From positions 1,186,239 to 1,250,238 of the forward strand of contig JAGNLW010000001.1 in NCBI GenBank assembly GCA_017999365.1: 64,000 nt of DNA, given 5' to 3'. This document shows, in pieces, positions 25,466 through 61,798 of the stretch (position 1 is the first letter of the stretch; every line of letters begins with the position of its first letter). The notes below the pieces were generated by a model. That model saw only the letters and a program-made list of their open reading frames with translations. It made no database searches and was not told the origin of the DNA. The position numbers and the translations under genes are program-made. The DNA comes from Candidatus Aminicenantota bacterium (GTDB taxonomy: Bacteria; Acidobacteriota; Aminicenantia; Aminicenantales; Saccharicenantaceae).

Positions 25466-25501
25466 GGCCGCGCCTATGAACGGGTCAATCAGCTCAGACG
25501 G

Positions 25502-25707
25502 GGATTCCCTCTCTCAGGCTTTAGCTCGGGGATGTCCTCTGGCTCCCCGGCCCCCCGGGGAACGGGGAGCGAACCCGGTGAGCGGACCAGGCAGGTTCGG
25601 GACGGAGCACCCGGAGTCCCGATCCTGCGAAATATCTTAAGATATTTCCCTCCTCCAGCAACGGGGATCTGCGAGGACAATCCCCTCGCCGCTTCGAGAG
25701 GGAATCC
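25502..25707. repeat. MITE-like 206-bp repeat with 12-bp terminal inverted repeats (copy A)
   Basis: Ends are perfect 12-base inverted repeats, GGATTCCCTCTC and GAGAGGGAATCC. It shares long near-identical stretches with 48877-49030: the first about 60 bases (through TCCTCTGGCTCCCCGG and the CCCCCCGGGGAA run) and the last about 55 bases (including CCTCCAGCAACGGGGATCTG). The middle differs between copies. No ORF. It sits between the dehydratase gene and MurJ. Confidence 0.8.
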
Positions 25708-25737
25708 AGGAATTCGGAGAAGGACCTGTTTTGCTTT

Positions 25738-35190: not shown

Positions 35191-37422
35191 ATGCGCGGCA
35201 AGGACATCGTTCGGTTCACGGGTATCGTGTTCGCGGCGGCCGGCCTGGCGGCCTGCGGCCGCGACCGGGCGGCGGGCGGAGCGGGCGGGCCCCTGCCCTA
35301 TCGCGACGCGTCCCTCCCGGTCGAACGGCGGGTCGAGGACCTCCTCGGGCGGATGACGCCGGCGGAGAAGTTCCGCCAGCTGTTCATGGTCGCCGGAGAC
35401 CTCGACGCGGGGACGGCGGCCTACGGGGACGGGATCTTCGGGCTCCAGGTCCGGGGCGACGCCGACGCGAGGGGCGCGGCCGCGAGGATCGACGCCATCC
35501 AGGAGTTCTTCGTCGAGCGGACGCGGCTGGGCGTGCCCATCGTGCCCTTCGAGGAAGCCCTCCACGGCCTGGTCGCGCCCGGGGCGACGGCCTTCCCGCA
35601 GGCCATCGGGCTGGCGGCGACATGGGACCCGGCGCTCGTCGGCGAGGTCGCCGGCGCCGTCGCGGCCGAGACGCGGAGCCGGGGTATCCGCCAGGTCCTG
35701 TCGCCGGTCGTCAACATCGCCCGCGACGTCCGCTGGGGCCGCGTCGAGGAAACCTACGGCGAGGACCCGTATCTCGCCTCGAGCCTGGCCGTCGCCTTCG
35801 TGCGGGCCTTCGAGGAGCGGGGCGTCGCGGCCACGCCCAAGCACTTCGTCGCCAACGTCGGCGCGGGCGGGCGCGACAGCTACCCCATCGCCGACGGCGA
35901 GCGGGCCCTACGGGAGATCGACTTCCCGCCCTTCCTGGCCGCGATCCGGGAAGGCGGGGCCCGGTCGATCATGACCGCCTACAATTCCTGGGACGGGGTG
36001 CCCTGCTCCATGCACCCGCGGCTGCTCACGGACATCCTCAAGGGCGAGTGGGGGTTCGGGGGCTTCGTCATCTCGGACGCCTGCTCGGTCGGCGGGGCCT
36101 TCAGCCTGCACCTGACGGCCGATTCCTATCCCGAGTCGGGGCGGCAGGCCTGGGCGGCCGGGCTCGACGTCGTCTTCCAGACGGAGATCGGCCACGCGGC
36201 GCTCTTCGAGCCGGCCATCCTCGAGGGCCGGGTGGCATCGGCGCGCGTCGACGACGCCGTGCGGCGCGTCCTGCGGGCCAAGTTCGAGCTGGGCCTGTTC
36301 GAGGACCCGTACGTCGATCCGGACGAGGCCGGGCGCACGAACGGGGCGCCCGGGCACCGGGCGCTGGCCCGACGGGCGGCCCGGGAGTCCGTCGTGCTGC
36401 TGAAGAACGCGGCGGGAACTCTGCCGTTGAAAGCGGAAGGCGGGCCGCGGTCCATCGCCGTCATCGGGGCGGACGCGGTCGAGGCCCGGCTCGGCGGCTA
36501 CAGCCGGCCGGCTGGACGCGAGGTCTCTCTTCTCGACGGCGTCAGGGAGCGGGCCGCGGGGTTGGGCGCGGAGGTCCGCTACGCGGCGGGCTGCGGCCGG
36601 ACGGACGGGGTCGGAAAGGACGGAGAGGCCGCCATCGCCGAGGCCGTTCGTCTGGCGAGCGGCGCCGGACTGGCCGTCATGGCGGCCGGCATCGAGGAGG
36701 GTGAGGCCCGCGACCGGTCCGACCTCCGGTTGCCCGGACGGCAGGCCGAGATGATCCGGCGCGTGGCGGCGACAGGGACGCCGACAGTCGTCGTCCTCTT
36801 CGGCGGGAGCGCCGTGGCTATGTCCGAATGGCTCGAAGACGCCGCCGCGGTCCTCATGGCCTGGTATCCCGGCGAGGAAGGCGGACGCGCGGTCGCCGAC
36901 GTCCTCTGGGGCGACGCGGACCCCGGCGGGCGCCTGCCCATCACCTTCCCGCTCGCGGTCGGGCAGCTGCCGCTCGTCTACAGCCACAAGCCGACGGGGC
37001 GGTTCGACGGCTACCTCGACCTCCCGGGCGATCCGCTCTTCCCGTTCGGGTTCGGACTGAGCTACACGGAGTACGCCTACGGGGACCTGCGGATCGAGCC
37101 GGCGGCCATCGCCCCGGGCGGCACGGCGCGGGTGTCGTGCCGGGTGACGAATACAGGCGGCCGTGCGGGCACCGAAGTCGTCCAACTCTATGTGCGCGAC
37201 AAGCTGGCTTCGGTCGTTCGCCCTGTACTCGAGCTCAAGGGCTTCCGCAAGGTCGCCCTCGGGCCGGGCGCCTCGGCCGAGGTGACGTTCACGCTCGGGC
37301 CGGAAGAGCTGTCGATGCTCGACGCGGCCATGAAGCGGGTCGTCGAGCCGGGCGGGTTCGAGGTCCGCGTCGGCCGCTCGTCCCGCGACCTCCCCCTCTC
37401 CGGCCTCCTGACCGTCAAATAA
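35191..37422 (+). CDS. Glycoside hydrolase family 3 beta-glucosidase-like lipoprotein
   Basis: The 743-residue protein has a lipobox (GLAAC, Cys 22), an N-terminal TIM-barrel (about 35-370) with the nucleophile Asp in GFVISDACSVGG, KHFVANVGAG, an alpha/beta sandwich (about 400-600, VVLLKNAAGTLPLK) and a C-terminal fibronectin-III-like domain. It probably removes glucose or xylose from oligosaccharide ends at the cell surface or in the periplasm. TAGAAT (35179-35184) ends 6 bases before the ATG and no ribosome site is present, so the transcript is probably leaderless. The 3' end abuts a duplicated repeat. Confidence 0.93.
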   Translation: MRGKDIVRFTGIVFAAAGLAACGRDRAAGGAGGPLPYRDASLPVERRVEDLLGRMTPAEKFRQLFMVAGDLDAGTAAYGDGIFGLQVRGDADARGAAARIDAIQEFFVERTRLGVPIVPFEEALHGLVAPGATAFPQAIGLAATWDPALVGEVAGAVAAETRSRGIRQVLSPVVNIARDVRWGRVEETYGEDPYLASSLAVAFVRAFEERGVAATPKHFVANVGAGGRDSYPIADGERALREIDFPPFLAAIREGGARSIMTAYNSWDGVPCSMHPRLLTDILKGEWGFGGFVISDACSVGGAFSLHLTADSYPESGRQAWAAGLDVVFQTEIGHAALFEPAILEGRVASARVDDAVRRVLRAKFELGLFEDPYVDPDEAGRTNGAPGHRALARRAARESVVLLKNAAGTLPLKAEGGPRSIAVIGADAVEARLGGYSRPAGREVSLLDGVRERAAGLGAEVRYAAGCGRTDGVGKDGEAAIAEAVRLASGAGLAVMAAGIEEGEARDRSDLRLPGRQAEMIRRVAATGTPTVVVLFGGSAVAMSEWLEDAAAVLMAWYPGEEGGRAVADVLWGDADPGGRLPITFPLAVGQLPLVYSHKPTGRFDGYLDLPGDPLFPFGFGLSYTEYAYGDLRIEPAAIAPGGTARVSCRVTNTGGRAGTEVVQLYVRDKLASVVRPVLELKGFRKVALGPGASAEVTFTLGPEELSMLDAAMKRVVEPGGFEVRVGRSSRDLPLSGLLTVK

Positions 37423-37617
37423 AAAGTAGGTGCCTGGCATTCACAAACGCTATTCTCCCCCTGGAGTTGTGAAGACCTGGCACCGTTTTCCGCTTCAATC
37501 GTCCCCGGCTTGGCCCGTGAAAAGTAGGTGCCTGGCATTCACAAACGCTATTCTCCCCCTGGAGTTGTGAAGACCTGGCACCGTTTTCCGCTTCAATCGT
37601 CCCCGGCTTGGCCCGTG
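37422..37617. repeat. Perfect 98-bp tandem duplication (2 copies) carrying a palindromic element
   Basis: 37422-37519 and 37520-37617 are identical. Each unit contains the GGTGCCTGGCATTCACAA...TTGTGAAGACCTGGCACC inverted repeat (37429-37482 and 37527-37580) plus the last eight codons and stop of the leftward YgiQ-type gene. One copy of those codons is real; the other is a silent fragment. Confidence 0.9.
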
Positions 37618-39158
37618 AGCAGGCGCTTCTGGGCCTTTTTCTCGGCGTACGGGCGCGGCACGTAGACCGGCTCCCCGGTGATGGGATCGAGCCCCGTGTG
37701 ATACATGCAGGTCGAGCGGGTCATGGGCGTCGGCGTGAAGATCTGGACGCCCTCGACCGGCTTCTCCCCGCTCCGCTCGAGCTCCCGCAGGAAATCGGCC
37801 AGCTCGCGGGCCTCCTTCTCGGTCGTCCCCGGGTGGGCGACCATGAAGTAGTACTTGAGGTGCTGGGGCCGGCCGCCCTTCGGGTCCGCGACGGCGGCGA
37901 AGAGCTTGCGGAACTCGTCCAGCCGGCGGCGTCCGCCGCTCTTGTTCATGAGCTTGAGGACCTTGTCCGAGACGTGCTCGGGGGCGATCTTGAGCAGGCC
38001 GGAGACGTGATGGCGGACGAGCTCGCGGACGTAATCGGGGCACTCGACGGCCAGGTCGTACCGGATGCCGCTGCGGACGAAGACCTTCTTGACGCCCGGC
38101 ACCTTGCGCGCGGCCCGCATCAGGGCCAGGAGGCGGCGGTGGGCCCCCGCGACGTGGGCCCCGTCCAGGCCGTACATGTTGGCCGTCGGGCCGCCCAGGT
38201 CGTCGACGATGCCCTTCCACTCGGGGTGCTTCGTCATCCGACGGATCTCCTCGAGGATGGAGGCCTCGCTCCGGGAGACGATACGGTCGCCCTGGTGGAG
38301 CGACAGGGCGCAGAACGAGCACCGGCCGACACAGCCGCGGTGGGTCTGGACCGAGAAGCGGGCCATGCCCAGCTCGGGGAAGCCCTCGGGGATGCGCCGC
38401 GTGAACGGCAGTCCGTAGACGCGGTCGAGGTCGGCCGGCGCGTAGTCGGGCGCGGGGTACTGGACGACGAAGCGGTTGGCGTGCTTCTGGGCGATGGTCT
38501 TGCGGTTGGTCAGGCGCTTCTGGGCCTCGGCGAACCGGGCTTTGTCGTCGCGGACCTCTTCATAGGACGGGACGACCAGGGCGCCCGCGGGCGGCTCGGA
38601 CCGGATGACGGCCGTGCCGCGGACGCCGTCGAGCCCCTCGCCGCGCCCGAGGCGGCGGGCGATCTCGACGGCCTGGAGCTCGCCGGGGCCGTAGACGAGG
38701 ATATCGGCCCGGGTGTCGAGGAGGATGGAGCGGCGGACGTCGTCGCCCCAGTAGTCGTAGTGGGCGAAGCGGCGGAGCGAGGCCTCGATGCCGCCGAGGA
38801 CGATGGGGACGCCCTTGTGGAGCTCGCGGAGGCGGTTGGCGTAGACGATGACGGCCCGGTCGGGCATCCGCGACTTGAACGGGGCATTGGGATCGACGGC
38901 CCGCTCGCGCTTGAGCGGGGTGTAGTTGACGAGCATGGAGTCGATGGAGCCCGAGGTGACGCCGAAGAACAGCCGCGGCCGCCCGAGCTTCAGGAAATCG
39001 TCCTTGCCCTTCCAGTCGGGGCACTCGATGACGCCCACGGCCAGGCCCTCGGCGTCGAGGACCCGGGCGATCATCCCGACGGGCGAGAGCGGGTGGTCGG
39101 CGTAGGGCTCGCCGCTGACCAGGATGACGTCGAACCCCGTGCCCTCGGTGGCGATCAT
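37593..39158 (-). CDS. YgiQ family radical SAM protein
   Basis: The 521-residue protein has an N-terminal half with PLSPVGMIARVLDAEG (cobalamin-binding-like fold without a clear His ligand) and a radical SAM core with CVGRCSFCAL (C-x3-C-x2-C). Family markers include SVQTHRGC, DLGGPTANMYG, SGLLKIAPEHVSD and YYFMVAHPGTTEKE. The substrate of YgiQ proteins is unknown. TAGAAT on the minus strand (39165-39170) ends 6 bases before the ATG with no ribosome site, so initiation is probably leaderless. The final codons lie inside a tandem duplication. Confidence 0.92.
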   Translation of the reverse strand: MIATEGTGFDVILVSGEPYADHPLSPVGMIARVLDAEGLAVGVIECPDWKGKDDFLKLGRPRLFFGVTSGSIDSMLVNYTPLKRERAVDPNAPFKSRMPDRAVIVYANRLRELHKGVPIVLGGIEASLRRFAHYDYWGDDVRRSILLDTRADILVYGPGELQAVEIARRLGRGEGLDGVRGTAVIRSEPPAGALVVPSYEEVRDDKARFAEAQKRLTNRKTIAQKHANRFVVQYPAPDYAPADLDRVYGLPFTRRIPEGFPELGMARFSVQTHRGCVGRCSFCALSLHQGDRIVSRSEASILEEIRRMTKHPEWKGIVDDLGGPTANMYGLDGAHVAGAHRRLLALMRAARKVPGVKKVFVRSGIRYDLAVECPDYVRELVRHHVSGLLKIAPEHVSDKVLKLMNKSGGRRRLDEFRKLFAAVADPKGGRPQHLKYYFMVAHPGTTEKEARELADFLRELERSGEKPVEGVQIFTPTPMTRSTCMYHTGLDPITGEPVYVPRPYAEKKAQKRLLTGQAGDD

Positions 39159-39177
39159 GGGTCTATTCTACAAAAAC

Positions 39178-39271
39178 GGGGACATGATACCTATTTCCGT
39201 TTTTCACGTGAGGGATCGGTCCCCTTCGTATCCCCTCAGACAGGCAAAAAGGAAATAGGTATCATGTCCCC
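39178..39271. repeat. Palindromic repeat with 21-bp perfect arms (GGGGACATGATACC family)
   Basis: Arms GGGGACATGATACCTATTTCC (39178-39198) and its perfect complement (39251-39271) surround a 52-base core. The same arms bound another copy at 40416-40494 on the other side of the MFS gene. Confidence 0.88.
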
Positions 39272-39274
39272 CAT

Positions 39275-40393
39275 TTATTCTTTCGGGAGGGCGTAGAGGC
39301 CGAAGGCGGCGTTGGCCAGCAGGACGGCGCCGGCGACGATCATCGGCACCTGGAGGCCGGCCCGGAAGCCCAGCCACGAGAACAGCAGGCTCCCGGCCAT
39401 GTGGCCCGTCGTCTGCAGGGCCATCAGAAGGCCGGCGCTGCCGCCGATCGTGGCCGTTCCGAACAGGCGCGACATGGTCAGGATGACGAAGGCCCCCATC
39501 AGGCCGTCGCCGCCCTCGTGGAGGAACCGGAACAGGAACGACAGGCGGACATCGCCGACCGTCATCAGGATGAGGCCCAGGCCGGACAGGGTCATCCCGG
39601 CCAAGAACAGCCGCCGGTTGCGGACCGGGTCGAATTTCAGTCGCCCGACGAGGAAGGCGGCCCCGGCCAGGGCTAGATAGGCCCCGGCCATGTAGAGGGA
39701 GACGCCCGAGTCGCTCAAGCCCAGGCGGGTCTTCAGGAACGGCCCGTAGACCGTCAGCTCCGTGCCCCAGTGCAGAGCCAGCAGGACCAGGAAGGCCGAG
39801 AACAGGAGCGTCCGCCGGTTGAAGACGCTGAAGCGGTAATCCCGCAGCGAGACGGCCGCGAACCGCTCCTCGCCGAGGCCGCGCACGGCCGCCGCCGCGC
39901 CCAGGCACAGGACGGCCATGACCGCGAGCAGGGTCCGAAAGCCGGCGACGCGGGCGACGAAGCTGCCCATGAGCAGCCCGGCCGGCGGCCCGAGCGACAG
40001 CCAGCCGACGTAGCGGCCGTACTTGCGGTTCGGGTCCGTCTCCGCCCGGTCCTTGAAGTACAGACTGTTGATGGAGACGTTGAAGGCGTTATTGGCCACG
40101 CCGAGGAGCAGGAAGGCCGCGGCCATGGGCGCGACGCCCCGGATGAAGCCCAGCGCCGCGAACAGGGCCGACATGGCAAGCAGGGCCGCCCCCATGACGG
40201 CTTTCATGGACACGCGGTCGTTCAGCCAGCCCGTCGGGAAGGAGAAGACCATGGGGGCCGAGGCGAACAGGGCCACGATGACGCCGATGCCCGCCCCGTC
40301 GAAACCCAGCTCGAGGAAGCGCAGCGGGGCCAGGAAGGCCACGGTCGTCACGGCCATGGTTCGGATGAAATTGAGGACGTGGACCCGGCGCAT
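39275..40393 (-). CDS. MFS transporter of unknown substrate
   Basis: ATG 40393 gives 372 residues; the ATG 9 bases earlier overlaps the TATAAT box. The protein has about 12 hydrophobic helices with a motif A-like loop (PTGWLNDRVSMKAV) after helix 2. No substrate-specific motif is recognised. TATAAT on the minus strand (40401-40406) ends 7 bases before the chosen ATG, with no ribosome site. The gene is framed by two copies of the same palindromic repeat. Confidence 0.85.
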   Translation of the reverse strand: MRRVHVLNFIRTMAVTTVAFLAPLRFLELGFDGAGIGVIVALFASAPMVFSFPTGWLNDRVSMKAVMGAALLAMSALFAALGFIRGVAPMAAAFLLLGVANNAFNVSINSLYFKDRAETDPNRKYGRYVGWLSLGPPAGLLMGSFVARVAGFRTLLAVMAVLCLGAAAAVRGLGEERFAAVSLRDYRFSVFNRRTLLFSAFLVLLALHWGTELTVYGPFLKTRLGLSDSGVSLYMAGAYLALAGAAFLVGRLKFDPVRNRRLFLAGMTLSGLGLILMTVGDVRLSFLFRFLHEGGDGLMGAFVILTMSRLFGTATIGGSAGLLMALQTTGHMAGSLLFSWLGFRAGLQVPMIVAGAVLLANAAFGLYALPKE

Positions 40394-40415
40394 GCCGGCC
40401 ATTATACAAAGAAAA

Positions 40416-40494
40416 GGGGGACATGATACCTATTTCCTATTTCCGGGAACGTCAGCGACAGGCGGGAAAATAGGAAATAGGTATCATGTCCCCC
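40416..40494. repeat. Palindromic repeat with 24-bp perfect arms (GGGGACATGATACC family)
   Basis: Arms at 40416-40439 and 40471-40494 are perfect complements and share the first 21+ bases with the element at 39178-39271. The core between them is unrelated (31 bases). Confidence 0.88.
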
Positions 40495-40500
40495 ATTTGA

Positions 40501-46468: not shown

Positions 46469-47871
46469 GCCGGGCCCCACTTCATCAGCACGGGCGGGAT
46501 GAGGGCCAGGGCGGCGAACAGCACCCACAGGACGAGCAGGGGCACCATCCACTTGGCCCACTTCTCCCAGCGCAGCCCGGCCAGCCCCAGGACGCCCATG
46601 GTCACGCCCGACGTCGGCAGGACGGGGTTGATGTACTCGGCGAACTGGAAGGCCAGCACGGCCGTCTGCCGGGTGATGCCGACGAGGTCGCCGAGCGGGG
46701 CCATGATGGGGATGGTCAGGGCGGCTTGGGCCGTCCCCGAATGGACGAAGAAGTTGATGACGCACTGCGACAGGAACATGATCTGGGCCGAGAGGACCGG
46801 GCTGAAGCGGGATATGCCCCCGGCCAGGCCGGCCAGGATGGTGTCCATGATCCGGCCGTCCTGGGCCACGATGAGGATGGCCCGGGCCGTGCCGATGATG
46901 AGGCAGGCGTTGACCATGTCCTTGACGCCGTCGATGAAGGCCCGCCCGAACTCGTCGCCCTTGAGCCCGCCGGCGATCCCGGCCAGGATGCCCATGGCCA
47001 GGAAGACGCCGCCGATCTCGTTGATGTACCAGTGCTCGATGAGGATGCCCAGGACCATGGCCGCGAAGCCGGCCGCGAACACGCCCAGCACGAGCTTCTG
47101 GCGGACGGTCAGGGGGATGCGCTCGAGGACCGGCTTGTCGACGCTCAGCCGCTGCCGCTTCTCCTGGTCCTCGTCGTAGGTCGGGCTGAGCCGCGGGTCC
47201 TTGTGGATGCGGGCCGCGTAGACCATGACCACGGCGATGGCGATGGCCGTCCCGATGGCCCAGATGACGATCCGGTAGCCGAGCCCCGAATACATGGGCA
47301 GGCCGGCGATGCCCTGGGCGATGCCGACCGTGAAGGGATTGAAGAACGCCCCGGCGAACCCGGCCGCCGCGCCGACGAAGGGCATGGCCACGCCGACGAT
47401 GGTGTCGTAGCCGAGCGACAGGGCCAGCGGCACGAAGACCAGGATGAAGGGCATGGTCTCCTCGCACATGCCCCAGACACCGCCCCCGATGGAAAAGATG
47501 AGCATGACGACCGGGATGAGCAGGACGCGCAGGGCCTTCTGCCGGCCGAAGGCGAAGGCGATGTTGCGGATGACGGCCGTGATGGCCCCGGTCTGCTGGA
47601 TGACGTTGAAGGCCCCGCCGACGACGAACAGGATGGCGATGATGGCCCCGGCCTCCATGAAGCCGCGGATGGGCGAGACGAGCAGGCCGCCGAGGCCCTG
47701 CGGCTCGCTGGCCACCCGGGCGTAGGACCCGGCCACGGGGACCTGCCGGCCGTCCTTCTCGACCCGCTGGTACTCGCCGCCCGGGATGAGCCAGGTCGCG
47801 ACCACGGTCAGGACGACCATGGCGTAGATGAGGATGAGGGTGTGGGGGAGGCGGAGCGGTTTGGCGCTCAC
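46465..47871 (-). CDS. YfcC family (C4-dicarboxylate/basic amino acid type) transporter
   Basis: The 468-residue protein has about 12 helices. The start (LPHTLILIYAMVVLTVVATWLIPGGEY) and SIGGGVWGMCEETMPF, MPFVGAAAGFAGAFFNPFTVG and the HSGTAQAALTIPIM segment are typical of YfcC/DcuC-like carriers. Relatives move C4-dicarboxylates or arginine/ornithine-type amino acids. The start overlaps the cyanophycinase stop by 4 bases (ATGA), so the two proteins are made together and the substrate is likely a product of that peptidase. Confidence 0.88.
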   Translation of the reverse strand: MSAKPLRLPHTLILIYAMVVLTVVATWLIPGGEYQRVEKDGRQVPVAGSYARVASEPQGLGGLLVSPIRGFMEAGAIIAILFVVGGAFNVIQQTGAITAVIRNIAFAFGRQKALRVLLIPVVMLIFSIGGGVWGMCEETMPFILVFVPLALSLGYDTIVGVAMPFVGAAAGFAGAFFNPFTVGIAQGIAGLPMYSGLGYRIVIWAIGTAIAIAVVMVYAARIHKDPRLSPTYDEDQEKRQRLSVDKPVLERIPLTVRQKLVLGVFAAGFAAMVLGILIEHWYINEIGGVFLAMGILAGIAGGLKGDEFGRAFIDGVKDMVNACLIIGTARAILIVAQDGRIMDTILAGLAGGISRFSPVLSAQIMFLSQCVINFFVHSGTAQAALTIPIMAPLGDLVGITRQTAVLAFQFAEYINPVLPTSGVTMGVLGLAGLRWEKWAKWMVPLLVLWVLFAALALIPPVLMKWGPA

Positions 47872-48773
47872 CGGGCCGGCTCCTCGACCGCGCCGGTCGC
47901 CGGGTCGTAGATGTCGCCGGCGAGCAGGACGTGGGCCGTGAGGCCGTGGCCGCCGAGGCGCCCGTCCGCGGACCGGAGGGTCTTGGCGCGCCGGGCGTCG
48001 TAGACGACGACCTGGCCCTCGCCGAGGACCTCGTACTTGCCGTCGGGCCGGACCAGGACGGCCGTCGACTCCTCGATGCCGACGCCGACGAGCGTGGGGT
48101 TCTCGAGGACGACGCTGATGAGGCGGTTGTGGCGCTTCCGGGTGACGAAGTGCTGGTCGATGACGGCCGCGGTGACGAAGCCGAAGCCGCGGCTGTGCTC
48201 GACGTTGTCGGCCAGGATCGTCTCCCAGCTGCCCTCCTCGCCGCCGGCCCGCTTCTCGTTGCCGGTGATCATGAACTCGCTCATGACGGCCGCCCCGGCG
48301 CTCGTCCCGCCCATCAGGCAGCCCTCGCGGTAGAGCTCGAGCATGCGCGTGTGGAGGGGCGTGTCGAGCAGGACCGCCGTCTGCTTGGCTTGGTCGCCGC
48401 CCGAGAACCAGACGCCGGTGACGCCGTCGAGGATCGTGAGGTTGGCCGGGTCCAGGGCCTCGTCCCGGGTCAGGTGGTAATAGGCGACGTCGGCCACCCC
48501 GTAGGCCTTGAACTCGGCCACCAGGGCCGGGCCGGTCTCGAGGGGCACGCCGCTGGCCATGGTGAAGACGACGACCTTGGCCGGGCCGTTGGCCTGGGCC
48601 AGCGCGACGTAGCGGCGCATGAGGGGCTCGTCGCGGTCGCCGCCGCCGACGATGAACAGGTGGCCTTTCGGAAGCGGGGCGGCCGCGGGGGCCGGGGCCT
48701 TCGGGGCGCAGGCCGCGACGAGGATCGCCGCTGCGAGGACGACGGGCAGGACGACGACGGGGTACTTCTTCAC
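47868..48773 (-). CDS. Cyanophycinase-like peptidase S51, lipoprotein
   Basis: A GTG start at 48773 with GGAGG is chosen; it gives a clean lipoprotein signal (Cys 22 in LVAAC). The 301-residue enzyme has IVGGGDRDEPLM, FSGGDQAKQ, the nucleophile elbow GGTSAGA (Ser 158), GFGFVTAAVIDQHF and the RLISVVLENP segment. Cyanophycinases hydrolyse cyanophycin to beta-Asp-Arg dipeptides. As a periplasmic or surface lipoprotein it would use external polymer or beta-aspartyl peptides and pass the products to the coupled YfcC transporter. Confidence 0.9.
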   Translation of the reverse strand: MKKYPVVVLPVVLAAAILVAACAPKAPAPAAAPLPKGHLFIVGGGDRDEPLMRRYVALAQANGPAKVVVFTMASGVPLETGPALVAEFKAYGVADVAYYHLTRDEALDPANLTILDGVTGVWFSGGDQAKQTAVLLDTPLHTRMLELYREGCLMGGTSAGAAVMSEFMITGNEKRAGGEEGSWETILADNVEHSRGFGFVTAAVIDQHFVTRKRHNRLISVVLENPTLVGVGIEESTAVLVRPDGKYEVLGEGQVVVYDARRAKTLRSADGRLGGHGLTAHVLLAGDIYDPATGAVEEPAR

Positions 48774-48824: not shown

Positions 48825-49046
48825 GGGGACACAATACCTATTCACCTATTTTCTAAAATCCTTCCCTGGACTCGATGATTCCCTCTCTCGGGTTATGGCT
48901 CGGGGATATCCTCTGGCTCCCCGGCCCCCCGGGGAACCAGTTCGCACGGTTCCCCCCCGCTGCGCGGGTCCCCTCCTCCAGCAACGGGGATCTGCGAGGA
49001 TAATCCCCTTCGCCCCCTCGAGAGGTAATCCCTGTATTGTGTCCCC
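48825..49046. repeat. Nested repeat: copy B of the 206-bp MITE inside a GGGGACACAATA palindrome
   Basis: Outer arms GGGGACACAATA (48825-48836) and TATTGTGTCCCC (49035-49046) are perfect. Inside lies copy B (48877-49030) with GATTCCCTCTCT / GAGAGGTAATC ends and long identity to 25502-25707. This fills the gap between the cyanophycinase and GH116 genes; no gene is seen. Confidence 0.85.
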
Positions 49047-49049
49047 GAT

Positions 49050-51695
49050 CTAGAATTTGAGCATTAAGGCGAGCGGCTTGCCGGGCTCGATGCGGACGGG
49101 CTGGAGCCAGCTCAGGAGGACGGTGTTCCCCGTCTGGCGGACAGTCGGACGGGCCGCGGTGCCGCCGACGGTCGCGTCGGCCGCCCGGACCCGCTTGCCC
49201 GCGAGCGACGGCGGCAGGACGACGGTGACCGTCTTGAGCGCGACCGCCCCGCTCCGGGCCTCGAGGCCGGCCTCGAACGGCCGTCCGGCCGCGGCCTTCT
49301 GGGTGTAGACGCCCCAGCCCGCGCCGGTCGTCCAGACCGTCCGGAAATCCTCGGCGTTGACCTTCGGGTCGAAATCCATGCGCATCTCCGGGCCCGAGTA
49401 GACGCAGCCCGAGAGGGCCAGCAGCACGCCCCACGAGGACATGGCCCGGGCGTAGTGGTGGCCGCACTCGACCTCGTTCCAGGGATTGCGGCGCCGGCCG
49501 TCGTAGCGGTCGCGGACGGCCTTGACGATGTTCAGGCCCTCCTCGACGAGGCCCTCGTAGATGAGGTGCGAGGCGACCTGGTACTCGATGCCCGTCCAGA
49601 CCTCGTCCGAGTAAGGGAAGGGCAGCGGCGGCCGCCCGCCCTTGGGCCAGGAGCAGAGGAGCAGGCCCTTCTCGTCGTTCAGCGCGTAGGTCCGCTGGAC
49701 GTTGGAGAAGCCCCGGAAGTCGGACAGGAAATTGTATTTGTAGATGGCCTTCAGGGACGACTGGACGCGCTCGGGCGGCAGGTAGCGGCCGAGGCCGGTG
49801 ACCATGCCCAGCCACTGGCCGAGGAGCATGTCGGACAGGCATCCCTCGCCGTACTGGTACTTCTTCTCCATGACCTGGGCGTACTTCTGGACGTAGTACT
49901 CGCCGTTCCAGAGCTCGCGGTCGTAAGCCGCCCGGCCCTGCTCGTAGATGGCCAAATACTTCTTGGCCGCGACGACGTCGCCGGCGACGAAGGCCATGGC
50001 CGCGCCGGCCTTGAGGGCGCCGAGGTAGAAGGCGCCCATCATGCTGTTGGGGCCGTAGAACTCGATGTCGTAGGTGTTGTGCTGCTCGCCCTCCATAAGG
50101 CCGTCGCGGTCGGCGTCCCAGGCCTTCCAGGCGTAGTCGAGGGCCTTCTTGGCCTGCGGCCAGAGCTTCTTCAGCCACTCGGTGTCGCCCGAGAGCTGCC
50201 AGTCGCGGTAGAGGCTGATGATCCGCCCCATCTGTCCGTCGGCGGCCGGCTTGAAGTCCCAGAGGACGCCGCTCGCGAGCGGCAGGGAGGTCCGGAACAT
50301 CATGGCCCCGTCGGGCTTGACGTTGTTGAGGAAGTCGGTCTCGCGCATGGTCCGCTCGAGCGACGGGAAGAGGAAGGCCAGGGACTGGGCGTAGTTCCAG
50401 ACGTGGGCGCAGTTGAGCGGGCAGCAGCCGGACTGGTCGCCGCAGCCCTCGAAGCCGAAGAACCGGCCGCCCTCGAGCCACAGGCCGGTCGTCGTGCGGA
50501 TGATGGAGGCCTGGCTCGAGACCGCGTCGAGGACCTCGGGCGGCAGGGTCTGTGAGAAGAAGGCGTCGTGGAAGGCGCGGCTCGAGGCCTCGAGGCGGCC
50601 GAGGTTGGCCTGGAGATATTCGGCCGCCGCCCAGGCGTCGGGGAACTTTTCGGCGTAGTGGTTCCGGAAGACGCGGCCGCGCTGTTCGGGGACGACGTCG
50701 AAATAGTTGAGGACGTTGGGGAAGTTCCAGGACAAAATGAACGGCAGGACGACCTCGCCGCCCGGCTCGATCGTGGCCACCAGGCCGAGCGTGCCGACAT
50801 CGGTCTGTTTGTCGGGCGAAGGCGAGGGCTCCGGGACGTCCTTGAGCAGGCCGTCGGCGGCGAAGTCGTCCCAGAAGATCTGCAGGTCGTCCCACCAGTC
50901 GCCGCGGACCCAGTGGGCGAGCGTCGTCGTCTCCGGCCACGGCGACGTCAGGGCCACGGTCCCGAAGGCGGCCTCCTCCGGCTTGACCCGGCGCGAGGAC
51001 ATGGCCAGGCCGCGGAGCGTCGGCGTGGCCTTGATCTCGTTGAGGTTCTGGCCGAACTTGTCGTGGCCCAGGCCGTCGACCGCCCCGACGCCGTCGTAGC
51101 CGACGGGATTGGCGACCGAGCCGGCGACGGTGACCTTGGCCGGAGCCGTCCCCGTGTTCCTGATCCGGTAGCGCCAGACGAAGGCCGGGATGCCGGAGTC
51201 GTCGGGCTCGAGGGGGATGAACGGGTTGAAGGCCTCGAGCGTGATCTCGAGCGGGACGTCGGGGTCGGACAGGGCCACCTCGGCGAACGGGTACTCGCCC
51301 TTGAAGCGGGCCTTGGCCATGCGCGGCAGCCCCGGGACATGGACGCGCTTGATGCCGAAGCCGGACGAGAACGGCGGCTCGAGCGGTCCCTCGAGGACGC
51401 GGACGAGCTTGCGGCCCGCCCCCTCGTAGTAGAGGGCGAAGAAGGTGAAGGGCATGTGGACGCCCTTGCCGGGCCGGTTGAAGATCTCCCAGTCGCGGAG
51501 GTTGCCGCGGCCGCCGAGCGAGACCGTGCCCGTGCCGATGCCGCCGAGGGGGAAGGCGATCTCGGAGAGGGCGGCCCCCTCGAAGGTCCGGACGGCGCTC
51601 TGGTCCGGGGCGGCGGCGGCCGGCGGGACGAGGACCGCAGCGGCGAGCGCGGCGACGAGGACGAAGCGGGCGATCGAGCGGGCGGGAGCGTTCAT
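49050..51695 (-). CDS. GH116 family glycosidase (bile acid beta-glucosidase/GBA2-like), secreted
   Basis: The 881-residue protein has a signal peptide (to about residue 28). The N-terminal beta-domain starts LSEIAFPLGGIGTGTVSLGG, typical of GH116. The (alpha/alpha)6 barrel has the nucleophile region TTGLWLEGGRFFGFEGCGDQ and the acid/base region GEQHNTYDIEFYGPNSMMGA. It probably cleaves beta-glucosides or beta-xylosides outside the cytoplasm. GGAGGG precedes the start. It stands alone between repeats and the Mut7-C gene. Confidence 0.92.
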   Translation of the reverse strand: MNAPARSIARFVLVAALAAAVLVPPAAAAPDQSAVRTFEGAALSEIAFPLGGIGTGTVSLGGRGNLRDWEIFNRPGKGVHMPFTFFALYYEGAGRKLVRVLEGPLEPPFSSGFGIKRVHVPGLPRMAKARFKGEYPFAEVALSDPDVPLEITLEAFNPFIPLEPDDSGIPAFVWRYRIRNTGTAPAKVTVAGSVANPVGYDGVGAVDGLGHDKFGQNLNEIKATPTLRGLAMSSRRVKPEEAAFGTVALTSPWPETTTLAHWVRGDWWDDLQIFWDDFAADGLLKDVPEPSPSPDKQTDVGTLGLVATIEPGGEVVLPFILSWNFPNVLNYFDVVPEQRGRVFRNHYAEKFPDAWAAAEYLQANLGRLEASSRAFHDAFFSQTLPPEVLDAVSSQASIIRTTTGLWLEGGRFFGFEGCGDQSGCCPLNCAHVWNYAQSLAFLFPSLERTMRETDFLNNVKPDGAMMFRTSLPLASGVLWDFKPAADGQMGRIISLYRDWQLSGDTEWLKKLWPQAKKALDYAWKAWDADRDGLMEGEQHNTYDIEFYGPNSMMGAFYLGALKAGAAMAFVAGDVVAAKKYLAIYEQGRAAYDRELWNGEYYVQKYAQVMEKKYQYGEGCLSDMLLGQWLGMVTGLGRYLPPERVQSSLKAIYKYNFLSDFRGFSNVQRTYALNDEKGLLLCSWPKGGRPPLPFPYSDEVWTGIEYQVASHLIYEGLVEEGLNIVKAVRDRYDGRRRNPWNEVECGHHYARAMSSWGVLLALSGCVYSGPEMRMDFDPKVNAEDFRTVWTTGAGWGVYTQKAAAGRPFEAGLEARSGAVALKTVTVVLPPSLAGKRVRAADATVGGTAARPTVRQTGNTVLLSWLQPVRIEPGKPLALMLKF

Positions 51696-61531: not shown

Positions 61532-61561
61532 GTCCGTTCTCCAGGGGAAGTTGGCGCATTC

Positions 61562-61590
61562 CTTATAGCATCCGCCCCCCGCCAAGTCAA
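61562..61590 (-). promoter_or_regulatory. purM promoter
   Basis: Minus strand TTGACT (61585-61590) and TATAAG (61562-61567), spacing 17; start of transcription near 61555, about 24 bases before the ATG. Confidence 0.75.
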
Positions 61591-61602
61591 ACCCCTCCGG
61601 AT

Positions 61603-61674
61603 GGTACCTGGTCTTCGCAAAGGGGGACACGTACCTGGGGTACGTGTCCCCGGAGCTTGCGAAGACCTGGCACC
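61603..61674. repeat. Nested palindrome combining both short repeat families
   Basis: Outer arms GGTACCTGGTCTTCGCAA (61603-61620) and TTGCGAAGACCTGGCACC (61657-61674) match 16 of 18; they belong to the 23.2 and 37.4 kb family. Inner arms GGGGACACGTACC (61623-61635) and GGTACGTGTCCCC (61639-61651) are perfect and belong to the GGGGACA family. Confidence 0.85.
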
Positions 61675-61727
61675 CGCCGGGACGGGATCTTTCCGTGGAG
61701 GGCGTTTGACCCGGTGTCCTTCGGGGT

Positions 61728-61754
61728 GTAACCTTTTGGCCAAAGGGCGGTATT
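61728..61754 (+). promoter_or_regulatory. Candidate ECF-type promoter
   Basis: GTAACCTTTT (61728-61737) with TATT (61751-61754) 17-18 bases after AACC. It parallels GCAACCCTTT upstream of the 42.9 kb sigma gene, so each may be read by its own or the other's ECF factor. Confidence 0.45.
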
Positions 61755-61798
61755 TCCCCATGAACGACGCCGAAACCGAGAGAGGGAAGACCGGACCC

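Follow-up and report, generated by a model that had tools for sequence, protein, structure and literature searches.

The window analyzed here, a 64,000-nucleotide stretch of DNA from Candidatus Aminicenantota bacterium, includes an intergenic segment (positions 48825-49046) in which a small MITE-like repeat appears to lie inside a palindrome of another repeat family. This arrangement raises the question of whether the segment is a single element or two repeats, one inserted into the other, and, if the latter, in which order and by which enzymes they arrived. Our reading is that two unrelated mobile repeats have very probably been stacked by stepwise insertion, with the MITE putatively moved by an ISL3-type enzyme and the palindrome putatively by a RAYT. 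The locus and its neighbors comprise the following features.

47868..48770, minus strand: peptidase S51 gene (PF03575; start codon provisional), one neighbor and second orthology anchor
48825..48852, plus strand: surviving 28 nt of the left arm of the surrounding GGGGACA palindrome, 26/28 nt identical to the palindrome-only locus of the related genome G007
48863..49033, plus strand: MITE copy B, consisting of module M1 with no M2 insert, outer ends degraded and right end cut back; a profile hit at 48863-49039 covers model positions 8-183 of 193
49034..49046, plus strand: surviving 13 nt of the right arm of the surrounding GGGGACA palindrome, 11/13 nt identical to G007
49050..51695, minus strand: GH116-type glycosidase gene (PF04685 and PF12215), the other neighbor and orthology anchor

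MITE copy B is enclosed by the two arms of a GGGGACA palindrome, and the final bases of its profile match overlap the right arm. The outer arms, GGGGACACAATA (48825-48836) and TATTGTGTCCCC (49035-49046), are exact complements, as the original prediction held when it described two intact 12-base arms. Relative to the G007 palindrome, 41 of 72 nt are retained around copy B, and the loss of the other 31 nt is one-sided, with the right arm being the cut-back side. No target duplication is visible at copy B itself, whose outer ends are degraded.

The arm pattern, allowing up to two mismatches, matches the 2.82-Mb source genome (G000) 42 times, versus 0 times for the reversed control. Therefore, the arms around copy B are not a chance occurrence. 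By our grouping, these matches fall into 29 palindrome loci. Both arms lie within the pattern in 13 of the 29, and among the 30 of 42 matches inspected there are others whose second arm is degenerate or missing. Blast searches with the MITE produced 35 hits, three of which are palindrome arms, and we grouped the remaining 32 into 22 loci. By coordinates, copy B is the sole MITE locus in the source genome with an adjoining palindrome arm. The window also contains two intact members of the palindrome family.

39173..39276, plus strand: MITE-free intact GGGGACA palindrome; a palindrome arm plus MITE is present at the orthologous site of the related genome G008, with synteny of 85% over 1488 nt up to 39171
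40412..40498, plus strand: intact GGGGACA palindrome

A composite element, in which palindrome and MITE always move as one, could explain the physical enclosure at 48825-49046 and at two loci of relatives described below (L125 and, with one arm, L064). However, such an element is almost certainly not what we observe: only 1 of the 22 MITE loci and 1 of the 29 palindrome loci of the source genome are combined, and the proposal is contradicted by an empty site, because G007 carries the palindrome alone at the same spot. The MITE and the GGGGACA palindrome are independent families. Had they always occurred together, a single element would have been indicated, and they are mostly separate.

The order in which the two families arrived can be read from the orthologous spacer in relatives. 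The GH116-type gene was taken into the 13 genomes of the genus and has a match in 11, and the spacer behind its 3' end was inspected at the nine best loci. In six of the nine, both neighbors are kept, with the peptidase S51 gene at most 400 bp away. The motif of this second gene lies 796 bp away in G004, and the 900 bp inspected in G011 and G012 do not contain it. Among the six spacers with both neighbors, the palindrome is present in two and the MITE in one. The spacers of G002, G003, G005, and G010 contain no repeat. That of G007, the closest relative by the GH116-type gene (83% identity), contains the palindrome alone in the same place, and the source genome is the only one with both palindrome and MITE. 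Empty sites, which the original prediction had named as a check, are thus available, and the spacer exists in three states: no repeat, palindrome, and palindrome plus MITE. Comparison of these states shows that the palindrome is the older component of the spacer and the MITE the younger.

One caveat concerns the host arms: between copy B and G007, each arm carries a two-base difference, and the two differences compensate each other (CA/TG versus TG/CA). This pattern needs either concerted change or a swap of one palindrome for another, and a single unchanged ancestral palindrome does not account for it. Nevertheless, the series of occupied and empty sites, together with the mostly separate occurrence of the families, bears out the proposal that one repeat family was inserted into another, and the nesting of the MITE in a GGGGACA palindrome at 48825-49046 is confirmed as real.

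The boundaries of the MITE required correction. The original prediction described a 206-bp element, and the ends it assigned are wrong: intact copies in relatives extend from GGTTCTTCTCCC to GGGAGAAGAACC and measure ~194 bp without the M2 insert. We collected 48 candidate copies with both inverted ends present (a few pairings are doubtful), which range from 151 to 334 bp and are therefore too short for a transposase gene. The likeness of their left and right flanks peaks at a length of 8, at 0.549 versus 0.344 when flanks are re-paired (z 7.3, a value reached in 0 of 2000 re-pairings), and other flank lengths from 2 to 12 give z values of 1.6 to 5.2. These 8-bp flanks are 79-81% A/T, versus a window G+C content of 68%. 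Readable duplications include TAAATAAA (L138) and TATTATAA (L216), and a flank match of 7 or 8 of 8 positions occurs in only 5 of the 48 copies. Thus, the target duplication that was sought exists as an A/T-rich 8-bp signal across the family. Judging by eye, a few MITE copies sit in the T-run of terminator-like hairpins. An A/T-rich 8-bp duplication is the mark of a DDE transposon, not of a RAYT.

The MITE ends point to a particular DDE family. A pattern search with up to three mismatches yielded 96 end matches in 7 of the 13 genomes, and the consensus of these ends, GGTTCTTCTCCCATTT, agrees at 16 of 16 positions with one end of the ISL3 copies L238 and L245. Individual MITE ends match that end at a mean of 13.3 of 16 positions, the sister end at 11.6, the ends of two other ISL3 types at 10.1 and 9.2, and the reversed control at 3.4; 4 of the 96 are fully identical to the L238/L245 end over 16 nt. 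The sister end, (G)GATCATCTCCC, is found on at least one side of L240, L245, and L247. Copy L245 is flanked by a perfect A/T-rich 8-bp duplication, ACATTTAA, and L237 and L241, which are of another ISL3 type, have A/T-rich 8-bp duplications AGTTTAAT and TTTTAATT; L242 has no 8-bp duplication. Because of the 16-nt end match and the 8-bp A/T-rich duplication, the MITE is best read, from its sequence, as a nonautonomous ISL3 derivative.

ISL3 transposases (PF01610) were matched in 1 of the 13 genomes of the genus and in 36 of 148 relatives, from which 33 loci were fetched. The source genome, which is 94.85% complete, has 0 matches, and 11 of its 12 congeners have none. The only one in the genus belongs to G007, and its end GGTTCTTCAGAC, inferred where two copies diverge, has no match to the MITE end beyond 8 nt. 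In the part of the end-pattern matches surveyed by eye, no long autonomous element with MITE ends was seen inside the genus, and facing end pairs lie ~190-322 bp apart. The MITE family looks orphaned in the source genome, with incomplete assemblies as the alternative. As a separate observation, G002 has 63 MITE-end matches, the most of any genome, of which 11 are without mismatch, and it has no ISL3 transposase match. Its MITEs look like a recent burst whose enzyme is not visible.

An A/T-rich 8-bp duplication fits IS1595 too, and RAYT-like genes are present in the source genome. Mobilization of the MITE by an IS1595-type or RAYT transposase is nonetheless scarcely plausible, given the 16/16 agreement of its end with an ISL3 end. 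The IS1595 DDE domain (PF12762) was found in 0 of the 13 genomes and in 1 of 14 control genomes. IS200-type transposition is not known to produce a target duplication, which counts against a RAYT for the MITE. The Y1/RAYT transposase that the original prediction suggested looking for fits the palindromes, since several RAYT genes have ones of this type beside them. It does not fit the MITE, for which the ends and the 8-bp duplication indicate an ISL3-type DDE enzyme.

A structured RNA was also considered as an identity for the MITE and rejected. Rfam models at gathering score find only a tRNA in the window, and a search of five MITE loci with E values up to 1 produced only P10, at 19.8 bits versus a gathering score of 37. 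Double changes do preserve 15 of 42 pairs of the MITE stem. However, this covariation is not evidence of RNA function, given that the MITE forms an inverted repeat and that related subfamilies are mixed in the alignment.

The GGGGACA palindromes have an organization like that of REP or REPIN repeats, in that the 42 arm hits in 29 loci form dispersed inverted pairs. Because the GTAG tetramer is absent from the conserved arms (by eye), we call them REPIN-like and not GTAG REPs. Two Y1 (RAYT-like) genes are present in the source genome, and the genus has 25 Y1 hits in 10 of 13 genomes. The RAYT gene could be recognized by motif in 20 of these 25 loci, with five unrecognized. Palindromes of the form GGGGACA..TGTCCCC lie at most 100 bp from the RAYT genes of L062, L156, L162, and L170 (4 of 20), and L171, a fifth case, has irregular palindromes nearby. 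The RAYT genes of L061 and L154 are accompanied by GGTRCC palindromes, and 12 of the 20 loci have neither type by the patterns used. Directly beside RAYT genes, only a short GGGGACA form occurs, for example GGGGACA(C/T)GTACC, which is also the inner element of a second nesting at 61.6 kb. Copy B is hosted by the long GGGGACATGATACC form, which is not found directly beside a RAYT gene; its nearest instance is 338 bp from one (L160 in G007). We also observed that the RAYTs beside GGTRCC palindromes (L061, L154) are of ~320 aa, and that those beside GGGGACA palindromes (L062, L156, L162, L170) are of ~215 aa. Thus, two palindrome types may pair with two RAYT types in one genus.

Two more MITE-in-palindrome cases were found in relatives. 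At L125 (G003), the MITE lies between GGGACATGATACC.. and ..GGTATCATGTCCC, and its right end is cut back much like that of copy B. At L064 (G008), a palindrome arm is followed by the MITE, within which the contig ends. The L064 flank is the one that matches window positions 37698-39171 (85% over 1488 nt), reaching the intact palindrome at 39173-39276. A census was made of 77 long MITE hits at 76 loci, 75 of which have at least 60 nt on both sides. GGGGACA palindrome arms in the right sense occur within 120 nt of 3 of the 77 hits, two others (L003, L212) have a weak match to the right arm only, and the remaining 72 lack any palindrome arm up to 120 nt away in either direction. In addition, a half palindrome is followed by a degenerate MITE at L133 (G008). 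Between the two, at L133:364-413, is a different kind of hairpin, which is near-perfect (AGAGAGGGTCAGATC..GATCTGACCCTCTC). Stacking also involves other repeats: two palindromes of the source genome run into GGTRCC-like hairpins (L041, L055), and in G012 (L224) a palindrome of a third type, GGGGTCAAACC..GGTTTGACCCC, encloses a piece of the M2 module of the MITE.

These cases might mean that the MITE is specifically targeted to palindromes and that nesting is nonrandom, as the three hits in GGGGACA palindromes, the weak right-arm matches at L003 and L212, and the arrangement at L133 would suggest. The number expected by chance can be approximated from the A/T-rich 8-mers that the MITE uses. The window has 603 intergenic A/T-rich 8-mers, of which 32 belong to the two intact palindromes. 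Palindromes are common in the window; when the count is scaled to the 29 loci of the genome, their share of such 8-mers is ~1.7% (hand arithmetic). Thus, ~1.3 nestings are expected among the 77 hits versus the three seen, with a Poisson chance of at least three of ~0.15 (also hand arithmetic); this is a rough figure, based on one window and on the palindromes of the source genome, and the excess would be larger if the doubtful cases were counted. On this estimate there is no clear excess of nesting over chance, and specific targeting is doubtful. The A/T-rich loops of palindromes in 68% G+C DNA probably suffice to explain nesting.

Stepwise insertion can be laid out as follows. First, as comparison of the spacers shows, a GGGGACA palindrome of ~72 nt entered the GH116/peptidase S51 spacer in an ancestor shared with G007. 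A RAYT/IS200-like Y1 transposase is the putative agent, because the same general type of palindrome flanks RAYT genes in the source genome and its relatives. Second, again by comparison, the MITE was added later inside the palindrome, in the lineage of the source genome. An ISL3-family transposase, proposed from the family to which the MITE is assigned, would recognize the MITE ends (GGTTCTTCTCCC...) and paste the element into an A/T-rich 8-mer in the loop or the inner arm of the palindrome, with duplication of 8 bp. The right tip of the MITE, the inner part of the adjoining arm, and with them the duplication may subsequently have been lost in one deletion.

The missing 31 of 72 nt and the lack of a duplication at copy B could instead reflect replacement of an inverted repeat, in which the MITE transposase recognizes hairpins and swaps their loop, as reported for IS1272. 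The loss at L125, which by eye is similarly one-sided, is also in favor of this explanation. However, the loss at copy B being confined to one side argues against it, as do the 8-bp duplication signal among the 48 candidate copies and the 72 of 77 MITE hits that have no palindrome arm nearby, and we consider loop replacement highly unlikely.

The MITE is itself modular, as is evident at the other copy in the window.

25499..25724, plus strand: MITE copy A, consisting of M1 holding an M2 remnant at ~25563-25652, without enclosing palindrome

The original prediction treated this copy (as 25502-25707) as an unenclosed twin of copy B. It indeed has no such arms, but it is not an equivalent copy, because it carries the M2 remnant. 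M2 is a 172-bp unit with inverted ends of its own that lies inside many MITE copies (including L010-L028 and L202-L218). Among 25 copies in which both MITE sides are readable, M2 is in one orientation in 18 and in the other in 7. Its right border is at MITE position 113-116 in 17 copies, in one orientation, and at 148-153 in the other 8, of which 7 are in the other orientation. Left borders are at positions 80-81 (9 copies), 49-51 (9), 76 (2), and 39, 44, 45, 61, and 71 (1 each), and those at 39, 44, 51, and 71 (7 of 25) come after GGC. For the seven copies with M2 in the second orientation, the left border is at 44-51 and the right border at 150-151, and MITE position 50 or 51 pairs with 150 in predicted folds. 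M2 takes the place of the hairpin tip of the MITE, and its breakpoints recur at a small number of positions. It may be mobile by itself or may have been exchanged through the hairpin.

This pattern raises the idea that the palindromic repeats in this lineage undergo reshaping in hairpin form, and that nesting is partly an exchange of hairpin tips and not plain transposition. It is suggested by the pairing of M2 breakpoints at ~44-51 and 150-151 in the predicted stem (7 copies) and by arms that change in concert, both in the host palindrome (CA/TG versus TG/CA) and in the MITE stem (15 of 42 pairs). We regard this idea as rather improbable and favor stepwise insertion.

The original prediction also held that an element at 61.6 kb shows the same kind of nesting.

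61603..61674, plus strand: outer palindrome of the GGTRCCTGG family, GGTACCTGGTCTTCGCAA/TTGCGAAGACCTGGCACC; no outer-only orthologue among seven relatives
61623..61651, plus strand: inner palindrome, GGGGACACGTACC..GGTACGTGTCCCC, of the type also present around a RAYT gene

The anatomy and composition are as described. However, no empty site was found: the outer palindrome occurs alone in 0 of the 7 relatives' spacers (L220-L226 of the loci L220-L228). A GGGGTCAAA-type palindrome is present in five of the seven (one degenerate); G004 has none, and G007 has a different upstream gene. Nesting at 61.6 kb is thus suggested by anatomy only. The surrounding spacer, upstream of a sigma-factor gene (window 61535-61760), contains both GGTRCC and GGGGACA palindromes and is a spot of repeat turnover. 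Elsewhere in the window, an exact tandem duplication of 98 bp (37422-37617) holds a palindrome of the GGTGCC family.

The locus at 48825-49046 provides a stepwise, ordered record of the stacking of small intergenic repeats in an uncultured bacterial group. It also permits a likely enzyme family to be named for an orphan MITE, which is set apart from the RAYT-linked palindromes that host it. Its lesson for annotation is that composites of this sort should not be taken for single elements or structured RNA genes. Among the literature matches listed, titles and opening lines of abstracts contain no description of these repeat families in Aminicenantes.

Small repeats nested in each other are of a known kind. 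The BOX, RUP, and SPRITE repeats of Streptococcus pneumoniae are a comparable system, in which BOX is modular (PMC3049150), as is the Aminicenantes MITE with its M2 insert. They differ in sequence and phylum, and in the passages of that account used here their order does not come from a cross-species series of empty sites. REP palindromes serve as targets for insertion sequences (PMC1525189), and REP-targeting elements, including ISPpu9 (PMC8450116), similarly place a transposon in an extragenic palindrome. Those elements are described in outline as full insertion sequences with specific REP targeting, whereas here a MITE uses A/T-rich targets with no clear preference for palindromes. IS1272, as summarized in PMC5678879, replaces inverted repeats, and part of its hairpin target is likewise missing after insertion; in contrast, the MITE family has 8-bp duplications and the loss at copy B is one-sided.

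REPINs and RAYTs (PMC3116915, PMC3733652) are comparable in that short repeats are dispersed as inverted pairs, some of which adjoin Y1 transposase genes, and REP dimers are noted to occur inside other palindromes (PMC3733652). The arms described here differ in having no GTAG tag, and the exact host form was not found directly beside a RAYT gene. The closest counterparts of the MITE are the ISL3 insertion sequences (PF01610; L238, L240, L245, L247), which share the same or nearly the same ends and, in L245, the 8-bp A/T-rich duplication. They differ in that the MITE has no transposase, and the likeness is that of their ends. All finds of an insertion sequence with the matching end come from genomes that belong to other families of the order. 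Set beside these systems, the nested locus is ordinary layering of one repeat into another.
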